64,000 bases of DNA. Origin: Nitrococcus mobilis Nb-231. Its GTDB lineage: Bacteria > Pseudomonadota > Gammaproteobacteria > Nitrococcales > Nitrococcaceae. Location: positions 995,671 through 1,059,670 of the forward strand of contig NZ_CH672427.1 in the NCBI RefSeq assembly GCF_000153205.1, written 5' to 3'. Shown here one piece after another: positions 3,969-44,636 of the stretch. The translations under genes were made by a program, and so were the position numbers. The notes beneath the pieces are model-generated. The model searched no databases. It had not been told where the DNA came from and was given only the letters and a program-made list of their open reading frames with translations. Each line of letters begins with the position of its first letter. Positions within the stretch are counted from its first letter, which is position 1.

Positions 3969-5516
3969 ATGGCTCAGCAGCACGGGAGTCAGCCTCCTCG
4001 AATAGGTTCCACCGTTGAAGGGCACCTAACTGAGGCAATTCTTTCGGCATCCGTGGAAATACTCTGGGTCTTCGATCGGGAGAGCCGTTACCGCTATGTG
4101 AGTCCTTATGCAGCCAGCCTGTTGCAACTCGACCCAGCCGCCATGATCGGACGCTCATGGCGCGAACTGGGATTCCCCGCCGAGTTCATGGTGCCCTTCG
4201 AGGAGAACCTCCGCTGCGTCTTCCGAGAGAACAAAACGCTAAGGGGGGAGACGCCATTCCTGATCCGAGACGAGCGCCGCCATTTCGAGTACGTACTGAC
4301 CCCATTGGAAACAACCGATGCTGGGATGGAGCTGGTGATCGCCAACGCCTGGGATGTCACCGACCGCGAACGCATGGGGGAGTCCTTACACCGAAGCGAG
4401 CGGCTCTTTCGCAGCCTATTGAAAGCCGCACCGAGCGCCATCCTACTCATCGATGCCGCAGGCACGATCACGCTCGCCAATGAGCAGGCGGAAGTGGTTT
4501 TCGGGTTTCCCCACGACGAGCTCATCGGCATGCGCATTGAAACGCTGATGCCCGAGCGATTCCGCTCTCGGCATGTAGGCTACCGGGAGACCTACCAAAC
4601 AAACCCTGTGACACGCCCTATGGGGGCGGGGCGTGAGCTCTATGCAAGACACAAAAACGGTGCGGAGTTCCCCGTCGACATCAGTCTCAGTCCTTTGGAA
4701 ACCGACGCTGGGCTGCTCACGATCAGCATCGCCCGCGACATTACCGATCGTATTGCAACCACCAACACGATACGCAAGCTCAACCGCACTCTTGAACACA
4801 AAGTAACGCAGCTTTCCGTCATAAACCAGGAACTGGAAGCTTTCTGCTACTCGGTTTCGCATGATCTGCGCGCGCCCCTGCGCGGCCTGGACGGCTTCAG
4901 CCAGGCCTTGCTCGAGGACTACGCCGAAACGCTGGATGAAACGGGCCAGGATTACCTCCGGCGCATCCGCGCAGCGAGCCAGCGCATGGCACAGCTGATC
5001 GATGACCTGCTGCGGTTATCGCGAATCACTCGCGCAGAAATAACCCTCGACACCGTGGACCTGACGGGCATCGCCAACGAAATTATAGCCGAGCGCCGAG
5101 CACAGGCGCCGCATCGCCAAGTGATGACCCATATTGCGCCCCGTCTGAGCGTCGAAGGTGACCGGCGGCTATTGCGCGTGGCCCTGGAGAATCTTCTGGA
5201 TAATGCCTGGAAATTCACGGCGGGGAAGCCTCAGGCAGAGATCGAGTTGGGAATTGACGCCGCCGACCGAGCCACTCCGACCTACTACGTTCGGGACAAC
5301 GGGGCCGGTTTCGATATGGCTTATGCGGAACGTCTTTTCGGGCCTTTTCAACGGCTGCACTCGCCACAGGAGTTCGAGGGCCACGGCATCGGCTTAGCCA
5401 CCGTCCAGCGTATCATTCAGCGTCATGGCGGCTGCATCTGGGCCAATGCCGAGCCTCAGCGAGGGGCGATTTTTTGTTTCACACTGGCCGATCCGGATTT
5501 TCACGGCAAACGATAA
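3969..5516 (+). CDS. Soluble PAS-PAS sensor histidine kinase
   Basis: A 515-residue kinase without any membrane segment, so it probably senses a cytoplasmic signal. The order is PAS domain (about residues 20-135), second PAS domain (about 145-265, ending in DITDR), a short coiled linker, HisKA-type dimerisation domain with the phospho-accepting histidine in SVSHDLRAPLRGLDGF, and an HATPase_c domain with LENLLDNAWKF (N box), RDNGAGFD (G1) and GHGIGLATVQRI (G2). This C-terminal half resembles bacteriophytochrome-type and Rcp1-partner kinases. The chosen ATG gives MAQQHG; an in-frame TTG at 3915 would add 18 residues and cannot be excluded, since neither has a strong Shine-Dalgarno sequence. It is followed after 19 bp by a single-domain receiver gene, likely its partner. 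Confidence 0.85.
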   Translation: MAQQHGSQPPRIGSTVEGHLTEAILSASVEILWVFDRESRYRYVSPYAASLLQLDPAAMIGRSWRELGFPAEFMVPFEENLRCVFRENKTLRGETPFLIRDERRHFEYVLTPLETTDAGMELVIANAWDVTDRERMGESLHRSERLFRSLLKAAPSAILLIDAAGTITLANEQAEVVFGFPHDELIGMRIETLMPERFRSRHVGYRETYQTNPVTRPMGAGRELYARHKNGAEFPVDISLSPLETDAGLLTISIARDITDRIATTNTIRKLNRTLEHKVTQLSVINQELEAFCYSVSHDLRAPLRGLDGFSQALLEDYAETLDETGQDYLRRIRAASQRMAQLIDDLLRLSRITRAEITLDTVDLTGIANEIIAERRAQAPHRQVMTHIAPRLSVEGDRRLLRVALENLLDNAWKFTAGKPQAEIELGIDAADRATPTYYVRDNGAGFDMAYAERLFGPFQRLHSPQEFEGHGIGLATVQRIIQRHGGCIWANAEPQRGAIFCFTLADPDFHGKR

Positions 5517-39411: not shown

Positions 39412-40092
39412 TCAGGTCACACGGTTGCGAAGATAGACAGGCAGCGCATCACTTGCACCCACCAGAGCGCCCTCGCGGTACCTGGCAAGTGCCATGCTCA
39501 GGCAATCCCGAGCATCCGGCAAACGTCCGCCGTCGAGACCGCCGGTCGGTTTACCACAGCGCGCCACAAGCCGCTCCTTATACAAACTCCAACCCGATCC
39601 GGCTCCATACCATGAACCAAGCAGCGGCGGCACGGGCACCGCATCCGGCGAGACCACCAGCTCATCGGCCATAGCGACCATGATGCCCTGTGCGGTGAGC
39701 TGATAGACTCCCCAATAGACCTCATCCATGCGCGCGTCGATTGCCGTCAACACCACCTCGCCGCCTTGTTCGCGGTAGACGCCTTGCGCAAGGCAAGCCA
39801 AGGTCGAAACCGGGATCAGCGGCCGATTTACCCCGTAGGCAAGCCCCTGGGCAACACCAGCGGCGATGCGGATACCGGTAAACGAACCGGGTCCACGGCA
39901 ATAGGCAATAGCATCCAGGTCACTCAATTGCAGCGCCGCCTGCCCTAGGAGCTCATCGAGCAGAGGAAGCAATCGCCGGGTATGCCCACGTGGCATGATC
40001 TCAGAGCGACTGAACACGCCCTGCGCCGTCGAAAGCGCTGCAGAACAGGCCTCGCTCGTTGTATCAAAAGCCAATATTCGGGGATCGCTCAC
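39412..40092 (-). CDS. tsaB: tRNA threonylcarbamoyladenosine biosynthesis protein TsaB
   Basis: A 226-residue ASKHA-fold protein needed, with TsaD and TsaE, to make t6A37 in tRNAs reading ANN codons. Typical stretches are RILAFDTTSEACSAAL, MPRGHTRRLLPLLDELL, IAYCRGPGSFTGIRIAAGVA, QGLAYGVNRPLIPVSTLACL and AIDARMDEVYWGVY. The C terminus ends in PVYLRNRVT as usual. Length is normal. Its neighbour to the right is a stretch of mobile-element debris, and to the left lies the inverted repeat and hinT. Confidence 0.92.
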   Translation of the reverse strand: MSDPRILAFDTTSEACSAALSTAQGVFSRSEIMPRGHTRRLLPLLDELLGQAALQLSDLDAIAYCRGPGSFTGIRIAAGVAQGLAYGVNRPLIPVSTLACLAQGVYREQGGEVVLTAIDARMDEVYWGVYQLTAQGIMVAMADELVVSPDAVPVPPLLGSWYGAGSGWSLYKERLVARCGKPTGGLDGGRLPDARDCLSMALARYREGALVGASDALPVYLRNRVT

Positions 40093-40304
40093 ATTCGCTC
40101 CATAAAGGTAGTATGGCTACGCAGCGCTGACCCGGCCGCGCGGACAAACGCGCATACTCATGGCCGATCGACGCAGACAAACCCCCACCACCACAGACTC
40201 ATTCGTGGCCAAGACGAATCTGTTCTCTACAGATACCCCAGACTTCCCAATGAGTTAAATCAGCTCGCTGGACATTCCGAATCGTGCGCTGGTACCAAGG
40301 AAGC

Positions 40305-40480
40305 ATGACACGGCCCTTTCCATTGGTCACGCCCGTGCTGTCCGAGGTCATCGTCCACCCGATCGAACGCCACGAAGAGCCGCGCTATCAGGCCGAGGCG
40401 CGCATCATTACCTCGGCGAACGGCCCACAATCGGCGAGACGCTGTGGTCACAGCGTTACCGACAACTCATCCGTTGAGTT
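40305..40480 (+). pseudogene. DUF4338 (transposase-associated) N-terminal fragment
   Basis: An ATG opens a frame with HPIERHEEPRYQAEAR. After one frame change the match continues as HHYLGERPTIGETLWS. EEPRYxxLMxxHHYLGxxxxIGETLWY is the recognisable start of DUF4338 proteins found beside or fused to transposases. The remainder is missing, cut where the IS5-like transposase fragment begins. The gene is dead on two counts, frameshift and truncation. Confidence 0.65.
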
Positions 40481-41031
40481 GAACAACGGCCGCACCACGA
40501 TAGCCCGCATTGCCGGAGAAGCCCTTCACAGGGTGGGCATTTATCCCGTGCCGCGCGCAGCACCGCACAGCCTCCCGCGGTGTCATCGACGTTGGCCGCG
40601 TGGATGATCACCTGAATCAGATGGCCCAGTGTGTCGACTACGAGATGGCGTTTGCGTCCCTTGATTTTCTTGCTGCCATCGATCCCCCGCGCTTTGCTGG
40701 CGCTGACCGTTTTGACGCTCTGGGAGTCGATGATGGCGTAGCTTGGGGTTGGGGTTTTGCCGTTTTTTTTTCGATGCAGCGCGTTGAGCGCGTCAAGGGC
40801 AGCCGCCCAAACACGGCGCCGATTCCAGTTGCTGTAATGGTCGTACACGGTCTGCCAGGGTGGGAACTCCTTGGGCAACATCCGCCATTGAGCGCCGGTT
40901 TTGTTGATGTAGAGGATGGCGTTAACAATAGTGCGCTTGGAATGGATCGGAACAGCGCCGCGGTTGTCTTTGGGTTCAAAGTGGTGCGCGATGAGCTGCC
41001 ATTGTTCGTCGGAGAGGTCACTGTCGTACAC
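40456..41031 (-). pseudogene. IS5-family transposase, frameshifted and 3' truncated
   Basis: The frame reads MYDSDLSDEQWQLIAHHFEP, SKRTIVNAILYINKTGAQWR, LPKEFPPWQTVYDHYSNWNR and then the DDE region IIDSQSVKTVSASKARGIDG and KIKGRKRHLVVDTLGHLI with the first catalytic aspartate and VDDTAGG. This is the IS5-type (IS427/IS1031-like) transposase. After ARDKCPPCEG the homologous reading moves to another frame (GFSGNAGYRGAAVVQLNG, stop at 40467), and the final part with the last catalytic glutamate is absent. No terminal inverted repeats were identified, so the element boundaries are unknown. Confidence 0.8.
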
Positions 41032-41155
41032 GAGCTGATCTCTTGTGTGAGATTTAAATATATTTATATGATAAATAACAGCGTTTTAACAAGACAGCTT
41101 CTGAGCTCGGCAAAGGGCATGCAAGAGCGAAGCGAAAATATCCGCCGCCAAGATT

Positions 41156-41849
41156 AGTCTGCGAGGACGATGGAGACGAAAGGAAACGATATTACTCCGG
41201 CGAGCGGATCCCAACGCTCGAGGTCGCGCTCACCGAGCACATGAATGTCGGCGACCTCAAGGCGCGGCTCGAGACCTTCGTGCCGAAACCTGCGAAAGCC
41301 AAGGTCAATACCATGCCGGGGCTTCCCGCTGCCTGTGAACTGCCCTGGTCCAGGTGGAATTCCAAGACGAGGACAGAAGAAAAAGGCACAGAGGAGGTTC
41401 CACTGGTGGTTCACCAGACCGAATTGACCGCTCAGCGAGAGCTGCTCTCGGTGCTGCGCCTCATCGATTCGGGCAAGGTCTCTGTCAGCGACAAGACGCG
41501 ACGCCCCTCGGCCGCGACCATCAAGGCCATCACCAACGTCCTAGAGGGCGGCGACTACTACCCGATCCTCCCGGTCAAGAGCAAGTGGAGCGATGAGAAC
41601 GCAGGTCCGATTCGCGCCTTTGCCTGGCCGCTCATCGCGCAAGCCGGGAGGATAGCACAGCTCTCGGGCTCGAAGTTGCAGCTCACCGAGGCGGGTCGCA
41701 AAGCACTCTCGGAGCCCGCCGCCGCGACCCTTCACAAGCTCTGGTCCAAGTGGATCGATACGACCCTGCTCGACGAGCTATCGCGCATCGAGTGCGTCAA
41801 GGGACAGACCGGCCAGGCGATCATCCGCGCCACCGTGGCCGGCACGTGA
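41156..41849 (+). pseudogene. Truncated internal part of a large unknown protein
   Basis: The open frame starts without an initiation codon near 41156 (CEDDGDERKRYYSGERIPTL, then EVALTEHMNVGDLKARLETF). It continues through ELTAQRELLSVLRLIDSGKV, PSAATIKAITNVLEGGDYYP, IRAFAWPLIAQAGRIAQLSG and TTLLDELSRIECVKGQTGQ before a stop. The phrases recall a family of long uncharacterised proteins, of which this would be joined pieces of the N-terminal and middle parts. An ATG at 41241 could give a 202-residue product. It is bounded by an IS5-like fragment on the left and an IS110 fragment on the right, so it was probably carried and cut by transposition. Function unknown. Confidence 0.55.
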
Positions 41850-41986
41850 AGGCGAGCGAACAGGCGATCGGGCGCGCCTTGACGGGTAACTGGCGCGAGG
41901 AGCACCTGTTCGTGCTTGGCCAGGCGCTCGCGGTGTACGACGACATCGGGCTAAATCTGAGCACTCTTCGGGGATTTTACTCTTGA
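41846..41986 (+). pseudogene. IS110-family transposase internal fragment
   Basis: In the frame shifted from the preceding truncated gene one reads KASEQAIGRALTGNWREEHL, then FVLGQALAVYDDIGLNL and a stop. The ALTGxxRxEHLFxLxQALxxYD stretch is characteristic of the middle region of IS110 DEDD transposases. About 40 codons remain, with neither catalytic end nor element termini, so it is a relic. Confidence 0.7.
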
Positions 41987-42011
41987 CACCGTCGCGGCTG
42001 GCGTCTTTAAT
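41983..42011 (+). promoter_or_regulatory. Consensus-like promoter about 300 bp upstream of ectA
   Basis: TTGACA and TTTAAT are separated by 17 bp, immediately after the IS110 relic. It points toward ectA with no gene in between. Whether it drives ectABC or is a leftover of the mobile element cannot be decided from sequence. Confidence 0.4.
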
Positions 42012-42295
42012 TTAATTGAGCATTATGTTTATTTATAGGAATGCTTTTGATTTCAACTGCTTCATATGTCAGGCTCGCTGGCCTGATCGCATGCCGATAT
42101 CCCCTCTCGTCTTTTCATAGACCTGCTAGAGTCTGGCTTTGGCGTAACGCGTTGCTTTTGCAGAAGGAAGATAATCGCGACCGCAAGGGAGACGCCCCAC
42201 AATCCTTCGGTAATGGCCGAGTTGGACGGTGCTCGTATTGGGTCATCGCAAACCGAATAACGTCTTGCGTGAAGTGGATATAAAGGAGCCTATAC
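42012..42295. other. AT-rich leader region upstream of ectA
   Basis: About 285 bp with no recognised gene. It contains a TATAAA at 42279-42284, suitable as a proximal -10 (start near 42291) but without a good -35. That would suit an alternative or activator-dependent sigma, as ect promoters are osmotically controlled in other bacteria. An AAAGGAG at 42283-42289 is not followed by a start codon at useful distance. Confidence 0.3.
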
Positions 42296-42309
42296 CCCTA
42301 AAAATAGGG
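42296..42309 (+). promoter_or_regulatory. ectA: Small hairpin overlapping the ectA ribosome binding site
   Basis: CCCTA, a four-A loop and TAGGG form a 5-bp stem. The right arm shares GGG with the GGGAGG Shine-Dalgarno sequence (42307-42312) of ectA. Folding would partly hide the ribosome binding site. The stem is short, so any effect on translation is inference. Confidence 0.3.
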
Positions 42310-42317
42310 AGGCAGCT

Positions 42318-42824
42318 GTGACCCACACTGAGCCGAATACAGGGATTCCCATTATTCGCCAGCCCGATGTCAATGACGGCAGTGGTATATGGCGCGTAGT
42401 GAAAGAATCCAACGTCCTCGATCTCAACTCCAGCTACCTCTATCTGCTGTTGGCCAAGGATTTTGCCGAGACCTGCGTCGTCGCGGAGCTCAGCGGCAAG
42501 ATCGTCGGCTTCGTCACCGGCTACCACCCACCGGCACGCCCCGAGGTCCTGTTTTTATGGCAGATCGGAATCTTGCCTAGCATGCAGGGCTGCGGCCTAG
42601 GCAAGCGGCTCGTGACCAGCTTTTTGCATAGTCCTGGCGCTCAAGGAGCCACGCTACTCGAGACCACCGTAGCACCCTCGAATGCCGCCTCCCGAGCACT
42701 TTTTCTAGCCATTGCCCGACAACTCGGAGTGGAATGCCGTATTAGCCCGTGCTTCAGCGCCAGTCAGTTTCCCGAATCCGGGCACGAGGATGAAGAGCTC
42801 TACCGCATAGGACCGTTGCCTTAA
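42318..42824 (+). CDS. ectA: L-2,4-diaminobutyrate N-acetyltransferase
   Basis: A 168-residue GNAT enzyme, second step of ectoine synthesis: it acetylates L-2,4-diaminobutyrate with acetyl-CoA. The family reads IIRQPDVNDGSGIWRVVKES, LDLNSSYLYLLLAKDFAETC, GFVTGYHPPARPEVLFLWQI and the acetyl-CoA loop LPSMQGCGLGKRLV, with the C-terminal LETTVAPSNAASRALF. The start is GTG with GGGAGG 5 bp upstream. The diaminobutyrate aminotransferase gene follows after 100 bp and ectoine synthase after that. The sequence is intact although mobile-element debris lies directly upstream. Confidence 0.93.
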   Translation: MTHTEPNTGIPIIRQPDVNDGSGIWRVVKESNVLDLNSSYLYLLLAKDFAETCVVAELSGKIVGFVTGYHPPARPEVLFLWQIGILPSMQGCGLGKRLVTSFLHSPGAQGATLLETTVAPSNAASRALFLAIARQLGVECRISPCFSASQFPESGHEDEELYRIGPLP

Positions 42825-42924: not shown

Positions 42925-44220
42925 ATGGAATTAATGGAGGCGATCGAACGCTACGAGTCCGAGGTGCGTAGTTATGTCCGCAACTTCCCGACGGTGTTCG
43001 AGAAGGCGCGGGGATCCTACCTCTATGACATCGACGGCAAAGCCTACCTCGACTTTTTCGCCGGAGCCAGCGTGCTCAACTACGGGCATAATCACCCCGA
43101 ACTCAAAAAGGCACTGATCGAGTATTTGGCCGGCGATAACATCACCCACAGCCTTGATATGGCGAGCCGTGCCCGAGCGGAGTTTCTCATGACCTTTCAT
43201 GAGAAAATACTCAAACCTCGGGGTCTGAACCACCGCGTCCAGTTCCCTGGCCCCACAGGCGCTAACGCCGTCGAAAGCGCATTGAAGATTGCCCGCAAGA
43301 GCAAGGGCCGGCAGAAGATCATTGCCTTTACCAATGCCTTCCACGGTATGACCCTGGGCGCGCTGTCGGTTACCGGTAACGCGTTTAAGCGCGCCGGCGC
43401 CGGCTTGTCGTTGACCCACAGTGATCCGATGCCGTTCGATGGTTACATGGGTGAAGGGTTCGACACCATCGATTATCTTGATCGCGTGCTTGATGACGGC
43501 GGCAGCGGGGTCGATCAACCGGCGGCGGTCATCACCGAGACCGTTCAGGCTGAGGGTGGCGTCAATATCGCCTCCGTTGCGTGGCTGCGCAATCTGCAGC
43601 AACTTTGTCGCAAACACGACATGCTTTTGATCGTCGACGACATCCAGGCCGGTTGCGGGCGTACCGGAAAATTCTTCAGCTTCGAAGAAGCGGAGATCGA
43701 CCCGGATGTGATCACGATATCCAAATCGCTCAGCGGATACGGGCTGCCATTCTCTCTTACGCTGGTAAAACCAGAATACGATATTTGGGAGCCCGGCGAG
43801 CACAACGGCACGTTCCGTGGCCACAATCCTGCCATGGTCACCGCCAAACGGGCCATCGACCTCTTTTGGAGCGACTCAACCTTCAGCCAGGAGGTGACGG
43901 CCAAGGGAGACTACATCCGTGAGGCCTTGGAAAAAATGGCCAGTAAATATCCGGAAACGCTGGGCACGGTACGTGGTCGCGGCATGCTGCAGGCAATCGA
44001 GTTCATGGACAAGGAATTGGCGGGCGCCGTCTCGAAAAAGGCTTTCAAACTTGGCCTGATTATCGAGACAGCCGGCCCGGTGGATGCCGTGCTCAAGCTC
44101 ATGCCTCCGCTCACCATTGCACAGGCGGACTTGGACAAGGGACTGCAAATCATCGATCGTGCCATCGTCGAGGCCATGCAGGAACTCGACATCGGCGCAC
44201 CCCAAGCGGCCGGCCAGTAG
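42925..44220 (+). CDS. ectB: Diaminobutyrate-2-oxoglutarate transaminase
   Basis: A 431-residue class III PLP aminotransferase that converts L-aspartate semialdehyde to L-2,4-diaminobutyrate, the first committed step of ectoine synthesis. It opens with YESEVRSYVRNFPTVFEKAR. The cofactor and active-site parts are VQFPGPTGANAVESALKIAR, AFHGMTLGALSVTGNAFKR, LLIVDDIQAGCGRTGKFFSF and the PLP lysine in ITISKSLSGYGLPFSL. NGTFRGHNPAMVTAKRAIDL is also typical. GAGGTGCACTC precedes the ATG. The coding sequence is full length and the order ectA-ectB-ectC is the common one. Confidence 0.95.
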   Translation: MELMEAIERYESEVRSYVRNFPTVFEKARGSYLYDIDGKAYLDFFAGASVLNYGHNHPELKKALIEYLAGDNITHSLDMASRARAEFLMTFHEKILKPRGLNHRVQFPGPTGANAVESALKIARKSKGRQKIIAFTNAFHGMTLGALSVTGNAFKRAGAGLSLTHSDPMPFDGYMGEGFDTIDYLDRVLDDGGSGVDQPAAVITETVQAEGGVNIASVAWLRNLQQLCRKHDMLLIVDDIQAGCGRTGKFFSFEEAEIDPDVITISKSLSGYGLPFSLTLVKPEYDIWEPGEHNGTFRGHNPAMVTAKRAIDLFWSDSTFSQEVTAKGDYIREALEKMASKYPETLGTVRGRGMLQAIEFMDKELAGAVSKKAFKLGLIIETAGPVDAVLKLMPPLTIAQADLDKGLQIIDRAIVEAMQELDIGAPQAAGQ

Positions 44221-44252
44221 TTCTCTGGGTAGGGAAGCGAGAGTAGTTGCCT

Positions 44253-44636
44253 ATGATTTATCGTACTTTGGACGAGCTGGTAGGAAGCGAGAACGACGTC
44301 CGTGCATCGACCTTTCACAGCCGCCGCTTCTTGCTCAAGTCGGACGGAATGGGTTTTTCTTTCCATGACACCATTCTGTTCGCAGGCTCGGAGACCTACA
44401 TTTGGTACGCTAATCATCTGGAAGCGGTTTACTGCATCGAAGGTGAAGGCGAGCTCGAGACCGTGGACGACGGTAAGATTCACCCTATTCATCCCGGTGT
44501 TTTCTACGCCCTCGATAAACACGACAAGCATTACCTGCGTGCCAAATCACAGCTGCGAATGATGTGTGTGTTCAACCCACCGCTCACCGGACGGGAGGTT
44601 CACGACGAGCAAGGCACCTATCCGCTCATGGAATAG
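44253..44636 (+). CDS. ectC: L-ectoine synthase
   Basis: A 127-residue cupin that closes N-gamma-acetyl-diaminobutyrate to ectoine. Signature parts are [52 protein letters not shown] with the metal-binding glutamate, and [18 protein letters not shown] with the metal-binding tyrosine and histidine. The ATG giving MIYRTL is the family's normal start; a TTG two codons upstream is in frame but unlikely. It begins 32 bp after ectB. Neither an aspartokinase (ask_ect) nor ectoine hydroxylase (ectD) follows, so the operon makes ectoine only. Confidence 0.94.

Follow-up and report, generated by a model that had tools for sequence, protein, structure and literature searches.

We have found that, in Nitrococcus mobilis Nb-231, a strain of a marine bacterium that oxidises nitrite, the DNA directly upstream of an intact ectoine (salt-stress) gene cluster has been replaced by a dead scar of mobile-element debris, which stops just short of the ectA promoter. 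The reading that we favour, with reasonable rather than high confidence, is that ordinary decay of IS elements clipped a candidate upstream promoter element, with the native promoter kept in place and a change in the expression of ectABC as the likely outcome. The window, by which we mean the whole stretch of 64,000 nt that was analysed (G000:C1:995671-1059670), lies in a genome of 3.62 Mb and 9 contigs. It was compared with four further genomes of the genus, G001, G002, G003 and G004; matched by coordinates, the relatives L010 and L009 are the metagenome-assembled genomes G002 and G004, respectively, and the ectA protein of the window is 89% identical to that of L009 and 87% identical to that of L010. 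Judging from titles and the openings of abstracts, we found no paper on this locus.

The debris covers some 1.74 kb, from about 40209 to about 41951, between ectA and the divergent, intact tsaB on its left (39412-40092, minus strand; PF00814, E = 1.5e-28; collinear in L009 and L010). Collinearity with L009 extends to 40208 and resumes at 41952, the 236 bp in between standing opposite 1,743 bp of the window; with L010 it extends to 40107 and resumes at 41980, 143 bp standing opposite 1,872 bp. Debris is absent from both of these relatives, which are the two where tsaB adjoins ectA, and the native flank on the tsaB side (40093-40208) has been kept, aligning to L009 as far as its position 5396. 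Since both edges are fixed by two debris-free relatives and the BLAST and HMM E-values are tiny, the debris is not a chance resemblance. The original prediction had described a mobile-element graveyard before ectABC, and all four kinds of debris that it named are present, with edges and identities that we have corrected; the interval it proposed, 40305-41986, does contain debris, but its right end falls inside the native -35 hexamer.

G003 and G001 are likewise debris-free. Here, divergent MFS transporter sequence takes the place of tsaB upstream of ectA (L051 and L052, respectively), as an adjoining gene in G003 and as homologous sequence visible on the short contig of G001, which implies that the position of the ect locus has changed within the genus. 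A different insert is seen in G004, where about 165 bp between tsaB and the AT-rich stretch described below (L009 5397-5560) are private to that genome and unmatched in the other four of the genus. We considered whether this insert might be common to G004 and others, and rejected the idea, as the 241-bp interval around it (L009 5380-5620) matches only G004 among the five genus genomes. The gap between tsaB and ectA may be a recurrent insertion spot.

Downstream of the scar, the DNA is native. The ectA promoter region and its leader (41952-42317, plus strand) are 84% identical to G004 (L009) and 76% identical to G002 (L010) over 29-377 of 379. The -35 hexamer, TTGACA (41983-41988), is identical in all five Nitrococcus genomes and is followed after 17 bp by a -10-like hexamer, TTTAAT (42006-42011), such that TTGACA-N17-TTTAAT and the leader are common to the window, L009 and L010, with TTGACA-N17-TATAAT in G001 and G003. 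This is the best promoter site within the 600 bp upstream of ectA. It should be borne in mind that ect promoters assigned from sequence have proved unreliable, as the part of PMC5924519 dealing with them points out, and this applies to the present assignment too. With a length of about 300 nt, the leader (42012-42317) is conserved in both L009 and L010, and no Rfam family reached the gathering threshold between 39900 and 42400. The synteny comparison that had been suggested for the tsaB-ectA interval thus finds it clean in L009 and L010, and identity of the ectA upstream region with debris-free relatives, which had been named as the observation that would count against any role for the debris, holds for the core promoter and leader and fails for the stretch beyond them.

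The genes themselves are full length with intact frames, as had been predicted: ectA (42318-42824; TIGR02406, E = 4.9e-54), ectB (42925-44220; TIGR02407, E = 5.3e-195) and ectC (44247-44636; PF06339, E = 5.4e-59), all on the plus strand. These profiles identify an ectABC cluster, and the relevant passage of PMC5818414 describes Nitrococcus as having the standard ectABC cluster without ectD. Counting synonymous against nonsynonymous substitutions, and leaving aside codons on which no two of the three genomes agree (8, 10 and 3 for ectA, ectB and ectC), those private to the window are mostly synonymous, at 13 to 6 in ectA, 29 to 6 in ectB and 14 to 3 in ectC, and the numbers private to L010 are similar, at 15 to 11, 47 to 6 and 16 to 3. 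For L009 the counts are 30 to 6 in ectB and 6 to 0 in ectC, with ectA running in the opposite direction on few changes (3 to 7). This pattern indicates that ectABC is under purifying selection.

What the scar has removed lies upstream of the -35. The scar reaches to 41949-41951, which leaves about 30 bp between it and that hexamer. Measured 21-60 bp ahead of TTGACA, the AT content lies at 0.70-0.95 in all four relatives and at 0.25-0.50 in the window. Within this stretch, the box CAATNNATTANTT starts 45-46 bp upstream of TTGACA in each of the four other Nitrococcus genomes and is absent from the window between 41501 and 42330. In L009 the box ends one base before the DNA common with the window resumes, which means that the scar took the box and almost nothing between the box and the -35. 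At the level of sequence, therefore, the window has lost a conserved AT-rich upstream stretch, which is a candidate promoter element.

How much weight the box can bear deserves some care. Required to stand 28-38 bp from TTGACA, it occurs once in each of the four relatives, always upstream of ectA, and not at all in G000, and a reversed-pattern control gave no occurrence in any of the five genomes. Because the pattern was derived from those same four sites, which represent only two clades, its recovery in the relatives is by construction, and it is the uniqueness of the box and its absence from G000 that constitute the result. Local alignment between the clades scores 27-29; dinucleotide shuffling gave scores this high in 1-3 of 300 cases and shuffling with the local composition preserved in 2-25 of 300, which is suggestive, though not decisive, of the box being more than AT-richness. 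In G003 and G001 the box is kept beside MFS sequence, which ties it to ectA and not to tsaB. We also considered the box as a family-wide feature and found none at 0-1 mismatch within 600 bp upstream of the ectA match in any of the 18 non-Nitrococcus family members; the best match outside Nitrococcus, in one family member, has 2 mismatches.

Ect promoters vary between species, according to the sections of PMC5924519 devoted to them. In Pseudomonas stutzeri, these place the determinant of osmotic control outside the -10, the -35 and the spacer, within a 116-bp fragment that suffices for osmotic control without known regulators. The Nitrococcus promoter, as predicted from sequence, resembles those described there for P. 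stutzeri and Halomonas in combining a sigma-70-type -35 with a gene cluster that is presumably osmoregulated, but it differs in the AT-rich box upstream of the -35, missing in the window strain. There is also a likeness to the EctR operator of methylotrophs, which likewise involves A/T-rich DNA near the ectA promoter; in the account given by the same sections, the region bound by EctR overlaps a -10, and the footprint of EctR is an A/T-rich 8-2-8 pseudo-palindrome. The Nitrococcus stretch, in contrast, lies upstream of the -35 and not over the -10, and we rejected an EctR-like operator since the best 8-2-8 A/T palindrome matched at 5-6 of 8 positions in all five genomes, which is not above shuffles.

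These comparisons bear on whether the loss matters. It is a serious possibility, although we hold it to be somewhat short of probable, that the scar is neutral: the history would be the same, with the AT-rich stretch lost without effect and the determinants all lying from the -35 downstream. Given that a 116-bp fragment is enough in P. stutzeri, where the evidence comes from the portion of PMC5924519 cited above, loss of the stretch may indeed be neutral, and the conservation of the core promoter, leader and coding genes under purifying selection is also in keeping with this. Set against it is the retention of the AT-rich stretch in all four relatives, in two gene contexts and at a fixed spacing. 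A bolder proposal, which we regard as doubtful, is that the box would be a dedicated upstream element, either alpha-CTD/UP-like or bound by a regulator, and that the strain would then be a natural knockout in which ectABC has been rewired and the pathway kept.

IS-element graveyards occur in bacterial intergenic regions, and the present locus is like them in that truncated members of several IS families are piled up at a single site and broken by short-repeat deletions. It differs in that debris-free relatives give the breakpoints to within a few bases and reveal the promoter DNA that was lost. The leftmost piece (40209-40448, plus strand) is the left part of an element of the DUF4338 (DruA) and ISAs1 type, its right part having been lost. 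Three further copies in the genome (L053, L054 and L055) share 74-80% identity with it, and it is shorter by 4 bases than two of them, L053 and L055. While the fragment alone gave no DruA Pfam match, its assignment follows from homology to fuller copies with both domains: L055 encodes a DruA/DUF4338 protein (PF14236) and then an ISAs1-type DDE_Tnp_1_assoc protein (PF13808), and L054 carries PF14236. The DUF4338 fragment that had been predicted is therefore real, and, like each of the other pieces, it has a fuller copy elsewhere. Our literature search found no paper treating both DUF4338 and ISAs1.

Adjoining it is an IS5-family element (40449-41105, minus strand), the transposase ORF of which (41031-40456) has its 3' end cut and frame-shifted. 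The transposase matches PF13340, PF01609 and NF033580, the last with E = 5e-42 and 144 bits (cut-off 110) over profile positions 2-165 of 258. Of its final part, 40449-40493 matches L059 and 40484-40541 matches L055 and L060, in which it forms a later part of the transposase (with small gaps relative to L055); this correspondence explains the frameshift. The last 177 bp (40929-41105) are 99.4% identical to L056, another site in the same genome. One end survives, a terminal inverted repeat on the start side (41085-41105), which agrees at 19 of 21 bases with what follows the stop of the IS5 transposase in L055, and a complete transposase with both terminal repeats was not found. This is a dead relic of the IS5 family (DUF4096 type), its frameshift and lost end agreeing with what had been predicted.

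Between 41102 and 41817 (plus strand) lies the relic of an XPB-helicase partner gene, encoding a Helicase_C_3 protein, together with its upstream DNA; the 3' half is lost. An earlier description of this region as joined pieces of a large unknown protein was right about the joining and wrong about the protein being unknown. Compared with the intact 635-residue gene in G002 (L088), the relic is 95% identical at the nucleotide level over 41249-41817 and 88% over 41102-41261, with a 300-bp in-frame internal deletion at about 41249-41261, the joint of which falls within the common 10-mer CGACCTCAAG; identity to G003 (L089) is 94% and to G284 (L015) 86%. The intact gene lies upstream of an XPB-type helicase, and it is homology to this full-length gene that identifies the relic as the N-terminal half of the partner. 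Unlike the intact pair, the locus lacks the helicase gene and shows the internal deletion and a fusion to IS110. A similar helicase and partner pair is found on a Gloeocapsopsis plasmid, and a defence function for the partner, which we considered, drew no PADLOC model. In G002 (G002:C100, L088 5000-17001) a TGT-like protein (PF01702), with a DndB-type protein (PF14072) on either side, is encoded within a few kb of the intact pair, a set reminiscent of dpd-type 7-deazaguanine DNA-modification islands. Near the pair in G003 (G003:C261, L089 2424-3686) is an ORF that by eye resembles a phage-type integrase.

The last piece (41795-41949, plus strand) is a putative part of an IS110-family transposase with about 40 bp missing inside, and it overlaps the helicase relic through the common 13-mer CAGACCGGCCAGG, a direct repeat. 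It is short and gave no Pfam match, such that its family, as predicted, is assigned from DNA identity only (89% and 91%) to the transposase gene of Burkholderia plasmid pBVIE04 (L061); a PF02371 search for further IS110 copies in the genome gave no matches. The position of these two junctions in direct repeats of 10 and 13 nt points to deletion between short repeats. We propose that the tsaB-ectA region took up the DUF4338/ISAs1-type element, IS5, a piece of an XPB-helicase island and IS110, and that deletions between short direct repeats later reduced this mobile DNA to the present scar; its anatomy is as described above, and the order of events is what we infer from it.

The debris could instead have come in as a single block assembled beforehand, such as an integrated plasmid or island, which we think possible but not likely. 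The 95% identity of the relic to G002, although the flanking DNA is about 87% identical, suggests transfer between lineages and that the helicase island may move between Nitrococcus lineages. The left edge of the debris, however, coincides with the end of the DUF4338 element, and IS110 stands at the right edge; neither an integrase nor replication or att sequences were recognised. This speaks against a single block.

There is only a slight chance that the debris supplies ectABC with a new outward promoter or a read-through transcript, as its delivery of a promoter had been envisaged. The helicase relic is co-directional with ectA and has an open frame of 256 codons, but a scan of 40000-42340 gave no consensus sigma-70-like site compared with 0.9 expected, under rules that also miss the native TTTAAT, and TTGACA-N17-TTTAAT and the leader belong to DNA common to debris-free relatives. 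The companion suggestion, that the debris had separated ectABC from its native regulator, is not supported, as in none of the relatives does a regulator gene adjoin ectA. The genes tested on its upstream side proved to be tsaB, HIT, ABC-transporter and MFS genes, and no MarR gene is among the ectA neighbours tested. An assembly artefact is very improbable, given that the contig around the stretch is 3.6 Mb long, the genome is 100% complete and both flanks are collinear with relatives.

Returning to the reading that we favour, both the leader and the native promoter of sigma-70 type have survived and most probably continue to drive ectABC, and the native DNA that was replaced included the AT-rich stretch with its box at a fixed distance upstream of the -35. 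The most likely consequence would be a changed basal strength or osmotic range of ectABC expression, brought about through a lost upstream contact for RNA polymerase or an activator, and not through a new promoter or the loss of a neighbouring regulator. Apart from the promoter question, the locus is one of ordinary genome decay. As set out in the cited sections of PMC5924519, the determinant of osmotic control in the one dissected ect promoter lies outside the -10, -35 and spacer. With the upstream DNA of the window strain replaced by debris, the five Nitrococcus genomes represent a ready, natural deletion series for the AT-rich stretch.
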